Assembly (NCBI RefSeq): GCF_000242595.2
Contig: NC_017098.1
Location: 1,674,001 to 1,738,000 of the forward strand
Reading direction: 5' to 3'
DNA length: 64,000 nt
DNA from: Spirochaeta africana DSM 8902
Lineage (GTDB): Bacteria > Spirochaetota > Spirochaetia > DSM-27196 > DSM-8902
A program made the position numbers and the translations under genes. Below are positions 112 through 4,702 of this stretch, in pieces (position 1 is the stretch's first letter; each line of letters starts with the position of its first letter). The notes under the pieces were generated by a model, which was not told the origin of the DNA, made no database searches, and was given only the letters and a program-made list of their open reading frames with translations.

Positions 112-2232
112 TCAGAAGGTAAATCCGGTAAAGAACTGCGGATGCAGGCCGATTTCTCCCCACGGGGTAGCCAGATGTGCCGGATCTTCGCTGATGTGGT
201 AACGGGATTCCCGGACCGCCTGACCTGACAGACCGGGATCCCCGTAGATCGATGCCCCGGCATAAAACCCGAGCCGACCGAAATGTATCCCGGCCGATAT
301 TCGCAATACCGGAAACACCAGTGCCTCTCCCGGGGTAACCAGTGAACTGATTCTGTACTGGGTCTCGCTGCCGCGGGCTGCCCGGGCCACACTCAGGTCA
401 CTGTCGACTACAAATGGCCCCGGCAGGTTCACGCGCAGCCCGGCACCGGCCCCGATAATCAGATGATCCAGTTCGCGCCAGGAATCTTCCCGATCCAGTC
501 CAAGAAAAAAAAGGGAGTATACATGTCGGGTGCCATTACGCACGCCCAGCTTGATCAGTTCATCATCCTCGAACCAGATGGTAACGTCGTTGATGCCGTT
601 ATGGATGATGTTTATCAGGCCGATTGGAACCCCATACACGTCGTCAGCGACGTTCACCAGCCCGATCTGGGTCCCATAGACCGTGCCTGCCTGATTGAAC
701 AGTCCAATCTGCCCGCCGGTTACCTTGTCGCTGCGATTAAATGGTGCCGCCTGCACCCCGATTGTTCTGGCTGACTGGGTGTATATCCCCGATGCCTGCA
801 ACCCGACCGAGGTTCCGGCGATCACACTGTACAGACCGCTGACACTGATCCCCAGACTGTTCCCGCCAATGTCCTGAAATATGCCGCTGACGGCCATACC
901 ATGGCTGTTCCCGGCAATGGTGGCTGCAACCCCGCTGATCTGCAGCCCGGTATTGTTGCCGGAAAGTGAGCTATGAATGCCGCTCAGGTTGAAACCGGCA
1001 GTGTTGCGTACCCTGGATGATACCGCAGACAACCCCAGGTTGATATCCTGCGGATGCAGTTCCCCGATTGACCATTCCCACTCAAGGGGAGGGAACACCC
1101 CGGCAGCGAAGCGAAATCCCCCTGCTTCTTCCCCGGAACCTCGCAGCCGGGTTATCTCCCGTCGCATCGGCACGAGGTCACGCAAGGCTACCTCGGTTGT
1201 GCCGTGCCGCGCAACCTGAAAATCCCCCCGGAGGCTGGTGTTCTGTTCACTGATAATGATCTCATAGCTGCCTGGTGGCACGGCCAATATTCGGGCCGAA
1301 CTGCCGCTGGTGTGAAACTCGGATATGATATTGCCAGCAGCACTGCGGATCAGCACGCGTCCGGAAAGACCGGAGGCGAAGCGCAAGGCACCTTCGGGTC
1401 GCGAAATGTCGGTAAGGACAATATCGCCCGTGCCGGTCAGCTGGATATCATAGCTTGGATGCTGTGGTCCGGCCGTGGTACTGGAGGTCATCGCCAGTGT
1501 TTCGCGAAACGCGTAGTGATACAGTTCATTCAGGGTTACGCGTCCGCTTTGTGTAGTGTCGGCGGCGCCACGGAGTCCGGAAACAACGAAGTGGGTAAAG
1601 AATGAGGCCTGAATACGATCGGATTCCTGACTGGCCTCGCTGTCGCTACTGGATGTCAAAAACGCAAAACCGGTCATATCGGCTGACTCATCGGTCAAAA
1701 AGGGCTGCACCCGGTCGCCACCTTTCAGGCGGGTAAATGCACCAGATTCGCAGCCGTCTACGATCGCCACAGTTACATCTGCACCGACCCCCTGTATCAA
1801 TTCTCGCAGCTCACGATAGGGCAATCTGGAATCCCCAATCAGGAGCCCCTGATCATCCGAGTGGCCGCTGTAATAGAACACAAACTCCACCCGGCGCGCT
1901 GCTGGAGCGATGGATTCCACCCGTTCGGTCAGTCTCCTCAGATCCGAGCGAACCTGGTCTACCTCCGGATCGGCCAGGTAGTAGGTGTCAGCCGGTGCGA
2001 TGCTGCCAAGTTCATTCATCACCTGGGCCATGCGGCGGGCATCCTCGGCTGCCCAGCGCAGGGTCACCCGGGAGCGGCCGCCATCGTTCGCACCAATAAA
2101 CATGCCGATTCGCCGAACCGGAGCAGTCTGCGCACTGGCAACGGTAGTACAGACGATCGCCAATACCACCACCAGCAGAGTACGGAAACACCGAAAGGTG
2201 CGAAAGCTGTCGTGGAAGCGGTGTGCGTTCAT
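112..2232 (-). CDS. Secreted caspase-like (C14 family) protease with surface repeats
   Basis: This 706-aa protein begins with a signal peptide (hydrophobic residues about 18-34, ending VASAQ), so it should be exported. Residues about 40-270 form a caspase/metacaspase-type domain. The catalytic dyad is visible as His124 in YYSGHSDD and Cys161 in VDGCESGAF. Residues about 320-345 look like a small beta domain. Residues 412-545 hold about eight glycine-rich repeats of period 16 (GLxxSGI-type, later GQIGLFN/GLVN), resembling the surface repeats of Leptospira LA_2272-like proteins. The C-terminal ~130 residues are beta-rich and end in Phe (GFTF), as outer-membrane barrels do. The ATG overlaps the stop of the upstream membrane protein by 4 nt (ATGA), implying translational coupling in the sigma-factor operon. 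Protease activity is inferred from the motif; substrate and surface anchoring are unknown. Confidence 0.82.
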   Translation of the reverse strand: MNAHRFHDSFRTFRCFRTLLVVVLAIVCTTVASAQTAPVRRIGMFIGANDGGRSRVTLRWAAEDARRMAQVMNELGSIAPADTYYLADPEVDQVRSDLRRLTERVESIAPAARRVEFVFYYSGHSDDQGLLIGDSRLPYRELRELIQGVGADVTVAIVDGCESGAFTRLKGGDRVQPFLTDESADMTGFAFLTSSSDSEASQESDRIQASFFTHFVVSGLRGAADTTQSGRVTLNELYHYAFRETLAMTSSTTAGPQHPSYDIQLTGTGDIVLTDISRPEGALRFASGLSGRVLIRSAAGNIISEFHTSGSSARILAVPPGSYEIIISEQNTSLRGDFQVARHGTTEVALRDLVPMRREITRLRGSGEEAGGFRFAAGVFPPLEWEWSIGELHPQDINLGLSAVSSRVRNTAGFNLSGIHSSLSGNNTGLQISGVAATIAGNSHGMAVSGIFQDIGGNSLGISVSGLYSVIAGTSVGLQASGIYTQSARTIGVQAAPFNRSDKVTGGQIGLFNQAGTVYGTQIGLVNVADDVYGVPIGLINIIHNGINDVTIWFEDDELIKLGVRNGTRHVYSLFFLGLDREDSWRELDHLIIGAGAGLRVNLPGPFVVDSDLSVARAARGSETQYRISSLVTPGEALVFPVLRISAGIHFGRLGFYAGASIYGDPGLSGQAVRESRYHISEDPAHLATPWGEIGLHPQFFTGFTF

Positions 2233-3032
2233 GGGTTTTTCTCCAGAAAAAACCGCAACACCCCATCGGCAAATGGGGGCTCGGCATCCGGGCGCAGGCG
2301 GTTGGATTCGTCAAGATTATCCTTAATCCAGCGCAGTGCGGCCTGTACATCGAATTCATGGGCCGATGCAATAAAGATCAGCTGTTCATGTCGGGGTGCA
2401 TCATCAAGGCGGAAGGCATACGGCAGCAATATCTGACTGCCTGTCTCTATCTGTGGGCTGTCGAATATCCCGAAGGGATGATGCAGGGATATCGTGCCGC
2501 GCCCGTCAACCGATGCAATTATTCCATAGTCCGGACCGGCAGAGCGATACGCCAGCTGGATCTGCTCACCCTCACGCACCCGGTCTCCCGGCGAGAGTTG
2601 TTGCACATCACCATCCGGCTGCTGACGGAACACCTGCAGTCTGAGTTCGGCCCCCTTCAGTCGGATAACATCGCCATCTACATTGATACTGCCGCGCTGC
2701 TGCAGCGGCAGGACAAACAGCATCCCGATCAGGATCACACTGGCCGCGGCTGCAGCCAGCGCTGCGGCCCGAAATGTGGCAAGATTGAATATCCGGGCGT
2801 CACCTGGCTGACTATGCTCCTCTTCCTGCAGGCGTCGCTGCAGTCGTTCGGCAAACTCATGTGGCGGCATCCGGGAAAGGATGCGCTGGTTATCCTCTAA
2901 CATTTCACGGCGTTGATCGGGCGAAAGGGACGGTACATTATCCCGGAGGTTTCTGTCCTGTTCGTTCAGAAGCTGCTGTTCCTGCAGCAGTGAGGGGGTT
3001 TTTCCGGCAGATCTGGGGTCTCGCTTCATCAT
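2229..3032 (-). CDS. Membrane-anchored anti-sigma-like protein, DUF4384-like C-terminus
   Basis: This 267-aa protein has a charged cytoplasmic N-terminal ~85 residues, including an HEFAERLQRRLQEEE helix. One transmembrane segment follows (about 88-110, AAALAAAAASVILIGMLFVL), then an extracytoplasmic domain of ~155 residues. The outer domain (LxPGDRVREGEQIQLAYRS, then YGIIASVDGRGTISLHHPFG, then FDVQAAL) resembles DUF4384-type domains found next to ECF sigma factors and caspases. It sits directly after an ECF sigma gene, which is the classic anti-sigma position, and overlaps both neighbours by 4 nt or less. A second ATG at 3029 is better spaced from the GGGAGGA site than the first at 3032. No zinc-binding HxxxCxxC motif is visible, so the anti-sigma role is inferred from topology and context. 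Confidence 0.7.
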   Translation of the reverse strand: MMKRDPRSAGKTPSLLQEQQLLNEQDRNLRDNVPSLSPDQRREMLEDNQRILSRMPPHEFAERLQRRLQEEEHSQPGDARIFNLATFRAAALAAAAASVILIGMLFVLPLQQRGSINVDGDVIRLKGAELRLQVFRQQPDGDVQQLSPGDRVREGEQIQLAYRSAGPDYGIIASVDGRGTISLHHPFGIFDSPQIETGSQILLPYAFRLDDAPRHEQLIFIASAHEFDVQAALRWIKDNLDESNRLRPDAEPPFADGVLRFFLEKNP

Positions 3033-3511
3033 TCCTCCCGCAGCGCAAGGCTCGTGCTGCGCAATTTTCGCAACCGCTTGCGTATCCCGGAAACCGACAT
3101 CCCGACAAGCGCTGCGGTCTCCTCAAGGGTGAACCCGTCCAGGTAATGATACATTGCGATCAAACGGGTTGTATCATCCTCTACCGCAAACAACCGCTCC
3201 AGGAAATGCCCGGCCAGTACCGTCTCTTCGGCAGATTCATGGTCTCGCAACAGCTCTTCATGCAGTTCAGCATGTTGACCGCCGCGGCGTCGCTGGGCCC
3301 GCAGGATATTGAGGCAGGTGTTGGTGGCGATAGTGTAGAGCAAACTGGAGGGGCCGCGTGCATCAAGCCTGCTGCGCTTTCTCAGCAGCTGCATGAACAC
3401 ATCTTGGGCAGCATCGAAGGCAGCCTCTTCATTTCGAAGGATTGCCTTGCAGCGACGAACCACCATGGGACCGTACCTCCGGTACAACGCCTCTATCTCG
3501 GTTGTTTCCAT
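3029..3511 (-). CDS. ECF-type sigma-70 family RNA polymerase sigma factor
   Basis: This 160-aa protein has region 2 at about residues 10-75 (RRCKAILRNEEAAFDAAQDVF, then LLYTIATNTCLNILRAQRRR). Region 4 lies at about 105-155 (YHYLDGFTLEETAALVGMSV and SGIRKRLRKLRS, a helix-turn-helix). Length and lack of region 3 fit the ECF group. The METTEIEALYRR start is chosen because upstream codons in the same frame overlap the end of the Nudix gene and look non-coding. No good Shine-Dalgarno precedes this ATG. Instead a perfect TATAAT lies 11 nt upstream, straddling the Nudix stop, so a near-leaderless transcript is possible. Target genes are unknown; autoregulation of this operon would be typical. Confidence 0.88.
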   Translation of the reverse strand: METTEIEALYRRYGPMVVRRCKAILRNEEAAFDAAQDVFMQLLRKRSRLDARGPSSLLYTIATNTCLNILRAQRRRGGQHAELHEELLRDHESAEETVLAGHFLERLFAVEDDTTRLIAMYHYLDGFTLEETAALVGMSVSGIRKRLRKLRSTSLALREE

Positions 3512-3521
3512 ATGTCGGTAA

Positions 3522-4301
3522 TTATAACACCAATTCCAGGTATATCTGTTCCTTGAGAAGAGAAACCGCACGAAGATACGGTACCTGCAGGGTCGGGTAC
3601 AGAGAATCCCCGGGGGCGTGACTGGTCACTGCTGCACGGAACTCAGTCAACCCGGCCTGGCGGGCTATATCTGATAACAGCTGCAGATATGGCTGCTGGT
3701 CAGCGGCACGTTGCAGGGCAGCATAGCACCCCCGCAGATCCTGCAGTATCGCAGCGGCGGCCCGTGTATAACCGGGGGGGGAGGATGCGGCGGCTGTCTC
3801 CAGTCGGTGTGCCGCAGGCGAACCGCATACATGCACCGACTGCATCACCATCTGGTCACCATCAAACACGAACCCCGATTCGATATAGTTCCCTGCCAGG
3901 ACATGCGGCAGCCAGAGGATATCGTCTTCCCACATCTGGTCGTAGGGTATCCGGTCAACAGGGCACCAGAAGGGGTCGGCTTCATCGGTAGCGGCCGGAT
4001 CTCCCGAAAATGCCGATGCAATAAAGATCCTTCCCTCAAGCTGGTAACCGTCTGCAAAGATGAACCTGAGAGTGCCGTACTCCTCCAGTTGATGTGGGGT
4101 TACACAGACCTCTTCCTCGGTTTCGCGTATGGCAGTCTGGATCGGGAGTTCACCCGGCTCGCATTTGCCGCCAGGTGCGTTTATCTTGCCTGCACCCAAC
4201 CCGCGTTTTTTCCGGATAAGCAGTAGCTGCTCATCCGATCGAATAAAGCACAGTACGGCAAGATCGTGGGGGTTCCAGGTTGTAGTATCGAATTGTATCA
4301 C
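3522..4301 (-). CDS. Nudix hydrolase, MTH1 (8-oxo-dGTPase)-like, with C-terminal extension
   Basis: This 259-aa protein, read from a GTG start, matches the MTH1 pattern. It has KKRGLGAGKINAPGGKCEPGE leading into the Nudix box (G-x5-E-x7-RETEEEV), then MWEDDILWLPHVLAGNYIESG, the counterpart of the MTH1 MWPDD segment that reads the oxidised base. The usual Gly near the box end is Cys. About 95 extra residues follow the Nudix fold (Ala-rich, then a helical QQPYLQLLSDIARQAGL segment) that MTH1 lacks. Likely role is hydrolysis of oxidised purine nucleotides, but substrate is inferred. The frame remains open to 4586, but that upstream part lies antisense to a better gene. Only 10 nt separate its stop from the sigma-factor start, so it probably heads that operon. 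A weak promoter (TTGATC, 17 nt, TAGAGT) sits just upstream. Confidence 0.75.
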   Translation of the reverse strand: MIQFDTTTWNPHDLAVLCFIRSDEQLLLIRKKRGLGAGKINAPGGKCEPGELPIQTAIRETEEEVCVTPHQLEEYGTLRFIFADGYQLEGRIFIASAFSGDPAATDEADPFWCPVDRIPYDQMWEDDILWLPHVLAGNYIESGFVFDGDQMVMQSVHVCGSPAAHRLETAAASSPPGYTRAAAAILQDLRGCYAALQRAADQQPYLQLLSDIARQAGLTEFRAAVTSHAPGDSLYPTLQVPYLRAVSLLKEQIYLELVL

Positions 4302-4309
4302 AGTAAAAT
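4280..4309 (+). promoter_or_regulatory. Candidate promoter for the 88-aa gene
   Basis: TTGTAG at 4280-4285 and TAAAAT at 4304-4309 are separated by 18 nt. They sit over the first codons of the divergent Nudix gene, so the two genes have overlapping divergent promoters. No experimental support; consensus match is moderate. Confidence 0.4.
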
Positions 4310-4328
4310 GTACTCTAAAGGATGCGAT

Positions 4329-4595
4329 ATGAGTGATCAAGAGGTGATGGTACCTGAATGGATACGGGCGGCCCAGATGCTGATCGCTGAGGTATATGCC
4401 AGGCTGCAGCGCGAATCGGAACCGATGGAGTTTGTCGTACTGACCCCGGAGGAATACCGCCTGCTGCAAAACTATCGTGCTTCGGTAGGGGAGCTGGACA
4501 AGCCCGGGATGGATTATCTGGGTCAGTACCATCTGTTTGGCCGGGAGATACGAATCGGGCAGCGATCCGGAAACACGCTGCCGCAAGCAGAATAA
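4329..4595 (+). CDS. Small hypothetical protein (88 aa)
   Basis: I do not recognise a family. The ATG at 4329 follows a good AAAGGA ribosome site with 6-nt spacing, which is why I prefer it to the upstream in-frame ATG. The protein is mostly helical and charged (WIRAAQMLIAEVYARLQRES, then FVVLTPEEYRLLQNY), with no signal peptide or membrane segment. It is divergent from the Nudix/sigma/caspase operon, with start codons only 27 nt apart. Its stop lies in the A-tract of the tRNA-Asn terminator, which on this strand is followed by no T-run. The gene is supported by its ribosome site and promoter-like sequence; function is unknown. Confidence 0.6.
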   Translation: MSDQEVMVPEWIRAAQMLIAEVYARLQRESEPMEFVVLTPEEYRLLQNYRASVGELDKPGMDYLGQYHLFGREIRIGQRSGNTLPQAE

Positions 4596-4628: not shown

Positions 4629-4629
4629 G

Positions 4630-4702
4630 CTCCCCCGGACAGACTCGAACTGCCGACCCAGTGGTTAACAGCCACTTGCTCTACCGACTGAGCTACAGGG
4701 GA
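4630..4702 (-). tRNA. tRNA-Asn (anticodon GTT)
   Basis: A 73-nt cloverleaf read on the minus strand. The acceptor is TCCCCTG paired with CGGGGGA with discriminator G, the D arm is GCTCAGTCGGTAGAGC, the anticodon loop is CTGTTAA (GTT), and the T arm contains TTCGAGT. CCA is not encoded. Confidence 0.95.

Follow-up and report, generated by a model that had tools for sequence, protein, structure and literature searches.

A sigma factor, anti-sigma-like protein and caspase-like protein as a predicted autoregulated cassette next to a Nudix gene in Spirochaeta africana

Four genes lie head to tail on one strand at this locus, and the original prediction read them as a single stress circuit headed by a Nudix enzyme. 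The question is whether all four belong together, or whether a functional unit merely has a close neighbour here. The window, that is, the whole 64-kb stretch of DNA that was analysed, is part of a complete genome of 3,285,855 bp. All four genes were found, in the predicted arrangement, and they are accompanied by a promoter candidate:

3522..4301, minus strand: MTH1-like Nudix hydrolase, 259 aa from an uncertain GTG start at 4301; core about residues 4-157, C-terminal extension 158-259
3523..3554, minus strand: predicted autoregulated ECF promoter, AAGGAACA-N16-GTGTTATA (-35 / -10), from a held-out weight matrix (PWM) and motif conservation
3029..3511, minus strand: ECF sigma factor, about 160 aa from ATG 3511
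2229..3032, minus strand: anti-sigma-like membrane protein, 267 aa
112..2232, minus strand: caspase-like (Peptidase_C14) protein, 706 aa

The spacing is as tight as had been claimed (10 nt or less, or overlapping). The gap between the Nudix and sigma genes is 10 nt on the same strand, and there are 4-nt overlaps (ATGA) at the sigma/anti-sigma and anti-sigma/caspase junctions. The most likely start of the sigma gene is ATG 3511, which agrees with the aligned starts of its relatives; GTG 3571 is also in frame.

To see which of these genes stay together, we compared the locus with those of relatives. Relatives of the anti-sigma-like protein were found in 37 of the 148 genomes of the class. In all of the relatives' loci that were fetched, the sigma gene lies upstream of the anti-sigma gene, and the caspase gene lies downstream in all but one, where the contig ends. 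Furthermore, a profile search of genome contigs, for which the spirochaete alignment was used, found 381 relatives, and most of the best 80 of these 381 loci carry sigma, anti-sigma and caspase genes in that order. Among these best 80, the cassette occurs in Spirochaetota, Myxococcota, Fibrobacterota, Vicinamibacteria and others, so that clusters of sigma, DUF4384 and caspase genes do exist in other genomes, as had been supposed. Several formally unscored loci also hold all three matches; the distance rule passed over them, as stop-to-stop ORFs are long in GC-rich DNA. In a few myxobacterial loci (L211, L222 and L233), no match to a linked caspase was found.

ECF-type promoters have a GGAAC-like -35 element and a short -10 element. 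We found that the motif GGTAACA-N16-GTGTTA is shared upstream of the sigma gene. The exact dyad occurs in 12 loci, whereas shuffles gave 3 at most. With a weight matrix from which this genome had been left out, the site at 3554-3523 scored 18.6; none of 2000 shuffles scored as high, and it is the best held-out score of the whole window. In a wider set that includes other phyla and partly overlaps the training loci of the matrix (some are from the same genomes), 59 of 72 loci scored at least 13, and the shuffle means were about 2-4. In loci with a lead OMP gene before sigma (L130-L132, L077 and L080), the motif sits upstream of that gene instead; therefore, it marks the operon start. Here, it lies at the very end of the Nudix ORF, within the final 33 bases, and its -10 element overlaps the stop codon of that ORF (TAA, 3524-3522). 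On these grounds, the cassette is predicted to be transcribed from its own sigma-dependent, autoregulated promoter. The co-occurrence across phyla and the shared promoter support the earlier view that the sigma factor, the membrane anti-sigma-like protein and the exported caspase belong together, and we think it very probable that these three make up an ancient unit that regulates itself and that occurs in several phyla without the Nudix gene.

The sigma protein scored 67.8 with TIGR02937 (cut-off 42.9) and was also above the cut-offs of Sigma70_r2 and Sigma70_ECF, and its region 4 matches were weaker (Sigma70_r4_2, 22.7, below 25.7). Its matches are those of an ECF sigma factor, with predicted Sigma-70 regions 2 and 4 and without region 3. 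The neighbouring membrane protein matched DUF4384 with 25.8 bits, just below the cut-off of 27. Its model has a single TM helix (residues 84-107), which is preceded by predicted cytoplasmic helices (14-21, 27-30, 38-54 and 57-73), and a DUF4384-like beta-sandwich (131-265) placed in the periplasm. The linker between the TM helix and the beta-sandwich, modelled with low confidence, carries R124-x-K126-G127; K126 is present in 81 of 81 aligned sequences and G127 in 80 of 81. The cytoplasmic part gave no match above cut-off to a curated anti-sigma family, a Foldseek search with the protein gave no match at E <= 0.001, and its profile gave no match in the PDB. From its sequence, we infer that this protein may bind and hold the sigma factor as a putative anti-sigma.

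The caspase-like protein matched Peptidase_C14 in Pfam with 36.9 bits, above the cut-off. A signal peptide (about 1-35) is followed by the caspase domain (39-275) with H124, C161 and D159, a beta-sandwich (about 281-356), a disordered linker (about 359-396) and a strand-rich C-terminal part (about 399-706), which resembles LA_2272 repeats and outer-membrane (OM) barrels and ends in GFTF. The intact His124/Cys161 dyad of the original prediction is confirmed by its conservation: all 27 spirochaete relatives have both residues, and in a wider aligned set H124 is present in 77 of 77 rows and C161 in 76 of 77, with D159 near-invariant. In the AlphaFold model (mean pLDDT 83), the best Foldseek matches of the N-terminal part were caspase-6, legumain and caspase-8. 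The C-terminal part matched OmpA, NspA, PagP and OmpX, each weakly (E 0.02-0.2), and it also matched NCBIfam NF047436 (LA_2272-type) above the cut-off. The modelled caspase fold and the His-Cys dyad fit a Peptidase_C14/orthocaspase member, and the models indicate an N-terminal caspase fold joined to a C-terminal outer-membrane barrel. The D-x-C motif is typical of Arg/Lys-specific Peptidase_C14 members, and D159-x-C161 is consistent with predicted cleavage after Arg or Lys. In classical outer-membrane barrels, both termini are on the periplasmic side. Because of this, the modelled caspase domain probably faces the periplasm and not the outside of the cell. Deployment of the protease at the cell surface, as had been suggested, is thus unproven, since a barrel-like C-terminus would usually leave the caspase in the periplasm.

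The same promoter type may point to other genes under this sigma factor. The exact pattern G.AACA-N17-TGTTA occurs at four sites in the genome, and three of them score well:

Strong site 1: the cassette promoter
Strong site 2, C1:1235110: exported 183-aa OM-protein-like gene
Strong site 3, C1:2648650: TonB-dependent-receptor-like gene at C1:2646145-2648637

The last of these genes encodes the only homologue here (41% over 840 aa) of the protein that follows the caspase elsewhere. The caspase gene is directly followed by a homologue of this receptor in L252, L236 and L225; in L238, L216 and L209, the match is weaker. Thus, promoter and gene order, two independent lines, indicate the same TonB-receptor gene. 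Genome-wide, the counts of the exact motif are not above those of a reversed-pattern control. A large regulon was therefore rejected for this genome; only sites that are among the strongest and also well placed can be trusted, so a small regulon is claimed. Our best reading of the sites is a regulon made up of the predicted OM-tethered caspase and OM proteins.

In our overall reading, which we hold to be highly likely, the locus encodes an ECF system that senses the envelope and regulates itself; its regulon would comprise the OM-tethered caspase and OM proteins. The sigma factor would be held at the inner membrane by the single-pass anti-sigma, and the periplasmic beta-sandwich of the latter would sense an envelope condition. 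Once released, the sigma factor would transcribe its own operon (positive autoregulation) and at least one unlinked OM gene, the TonB-dependent-receptor-like one. The exported caspase would be anchored by its C-terminal barrel in the outer membrane, most likely facing the periplasm, and would cleave envelope proteins after Arg or Lys. As for the oxidative damage that had been proposed as a trigger, nothing was found that points to oxidative stress.

The caspase might also act at the input of the system. As an OM-tethered site-1 protease, it would cut the anti-sigma linker near R124-x-K126-G127 and free the sigma factor, by analogy with DegS acting on RseA, and the freed sigma factor would feed back positively on its own operon. 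Such a route of envelope signalling across phyla would fit the strict pairing of anti-sigma and caspase, the near-invariant D159-x-C161, which is a metacaspase-like basic-P1 signature, and the conservation of K126 and G127 within a low-confidence linker. However, R124 is not invariant, and the xKG motif is kept in three myxobacterial loci (Corallococcus and Archangium) without a linked caspase and may be structural. Because the motif persists there, we keep the cleavage site as a rival only, and we regard this route as unlikely.

Somewhat more doubtful still is FecIR-like signalling, in which a TonB-receptor-like OM protein or the barrel would sense an external ligand and contact the periplasmic domain of the anti-sigma. 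The composition of sigma, anti-sigma and OM receptor argues for it, as do the receptor genes that immediately follow the caspase gene in several genomes, and the shared predicted promoter here. However, the receptor is unlinked to the cassette in most spirochaete loci, and a Pfam search of the anti-sigma gave no FecR match at E <= 1.

Beside the autoregulated envelope-sensing cassette that we prefer, the Nudix gene is best seen as a bystander from a separate conserved neighbourhood, outside the design of the cassette. Judged by its sequence, its product is an MTH1-like hydrolase. It matched PF00293 in Pfam (E = 2e-16, 60.4 bits), its nearest solved structures are MTH1/NUDT1 (8e-26), and it has the intact Nudix box of the MTH1/MutT group, with the catalytic Glu residues, by reading, in GKCEPGELPIQTAIRETEEE. 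The gene was found in 111 of the 148 class genomes, whereas the cassette, counted by its anti-sigma relatives, was found in 37; within the order, the gene is near-universal (42 of 46 genomes), and the cassette is present in 11 of 46. Its usual neighbours in the order are a small divergent ORF (4266-4595 in the window), an H+-pyrophosphatase, a sigma-70-type factor and a LysM/M23 peptidase. Only in this genome and in genus g9 of another family, f6 (loci L062, L127, L128, L129 and L134) is it close to the cassette within the order, and in g9 an opposite-strand TPR-GAF-GGDEF gene of about 2.2 kb separates it from sigma. Among the best 80 cross-phylum loci, only four g9-type records have a linked Nudix gene. 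It abuts the cassette here because the intervening genes are absent. In the caspase tree, this genome groups with f6 and f2 (97/97 support). Therefore, Nudix gene and cassette may have shared an ancestral location, with either loss of the GGDEF gene here or its insertion in g9 as a possible later step.

Residues from about 158 to 259 of the Nudix protein have no counterpart among relatives, and a Pfam search of this extension gave no match. Its codon use resembles that of coding sequence, and it looks like a recent, lineage-specific addition. We also asked whether it derives from the intervening GGDEF gene and rejected this, since there was no credible tblastn match; the single significant one was an ORF that runs antisense across the sigma gene. 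No strong terminator was found between the Nudix and sigma genes in this genome. Since the two genes are 10 nt apart on one strand, co-transcription by read-through is possible, and selection might retain the arrangement.

That all four genes form one stress operon, in which the Nudix enzyme cleans oxidised nucleotides under shared regulation, is nevertheless very improbable: the short same-strand gap fits it, and so do the g9 genomes (G146, G176, G177, G178 and G179) in which sigma or the entire cassette follows Nudix at a distance of about 2 kb, but the opposite-strand GGDEF gene intervenes there, Nudix is unlinked elsewhere and present in many genomes without the cassette, and the cassette has a conserved promoter at its own start, downstream of the Nudix start. 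The same observations speak against the Nudix gene as head of the circuit. Of the proposed four-gene order, the sigma/anti-sigma/caspase part holds across relatives and the Nudix part does not, and the original prediction had itself named a random occurrence of Nudix beside sigma in relatives as evidence against it, which is essentially what we found.

The cassette resembles RpoE-RseA and SigW-RsiW in that an ECF sigma factor precedes a protein that crosses the membrane once and has a short helical part in the cytoplasm, under a predicted autoregulated promoter with a GGAAC/GGTAAC-type -35 element. Unlike those systems, it has a DUF4384-like periplasmic beta-sandwich and a caspase-barrel protein as a fixed third gene, and its cytoplasmic part, unlike that of class I anti-sigmas, is without a curated family match above cut-off. 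The caspase fold, His-Cys dyad and D-x-C motif are shared with orthocaspases and metacaspases; in contrast to the known ones, this caspase is predicted to be exported, is fused to an OM-barrel-like C-terminus and lies within an ECF operon. That C-terminus has the same short glycine-rich strand repeats as Leptospira LA_2272-type surface-repeat proteins (NF047436), but here they are fused behind a caspase domain. In addition, a free-standing LA_2272-type homologue adjoins the cassette in genome G018 (L063:9130-10347). The Nudix core is closest to solved MTH1, as in MTH1/NUDT1 8-oxo-dGTP hydrolases, but it carries an extension of about 100 aa and its genomic context is unrelated to MTH1 biology.

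In the portion of PMC3501461 available to us, sigma factors are a mere example among the operon neighbours of metacaspases, and no such cassette is described. A literature search on DUF4384 with caspase and sigma, with a coverage that the main ECF classification lies outside of, found no description of the cassette either. Thus, the component families are known, and the sigma/anti-sigma/caspase cassette itself is without description in the literature searched.

With the Nudix adjacency seen as a side effect of genome rearrangement, a misleading reading of the locus in terms of oxidative stress falls away. Caspase-like proteases are widespread in bacteria, yet they rarely come with a defined regulatory circuit. 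Here, the promoter, the regulator pair, the predicted cell location and the co-regulated OM receptor would give such a protease a role in envelope physiology that is concrete and can be tested. Myxococcus xanthus, which carries the cassette, is genetically tractable.

Outer-membrane (OM)-protein-like genes were found to stand first in the sigma operon at several loci (L numbers), and the promoter motif lay 5′ of the lead gene in most of them.

L130:5206-5916, L131:6480-7196, L132:8051-8785, L074:9041-9640, L077:4336-4950 and L080:3773-4387, related OM-protein-like first genes

In addition, the barrel/repeat domain at the caspase C-terminus has a stand-alone homologue at L063:9130-10347, oriented divergently from the sigma gene.

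Among exact promoter sites in the source genome, the top score (20.4) belonged to G000:C1:1235110 (whole-genome coordinate; L168, L259). The gene downstream encodes an exported 183-aa OM-protein-like product of unknown family, and an rpoZ-like reading frame lies 3′ of this gene. A promoter-like site at G000:C1:3249302 (L176; score 19.8), 9 bases upstream of a TetR-like regulator gene, may be a chance occurrence.

The C-terminal extension of the Nudix protein (~100 aa, window 3522-3830) showed coding-like codon use, and a search for its relatives found none. A tRNA-Asn (gtt) gene (window 4629-4702, minus strand) is followed by a terminator-like hairpin.

Furthermore, a strong cassette-type promoter was assigned to one receptor gene.

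G000:C1:2646145-2648637 (L257, L258), TonB-dependent-receptor-like gene

The caspase gene is directly 5′ of homologues of this receptor gene in L252, L236 and L225.
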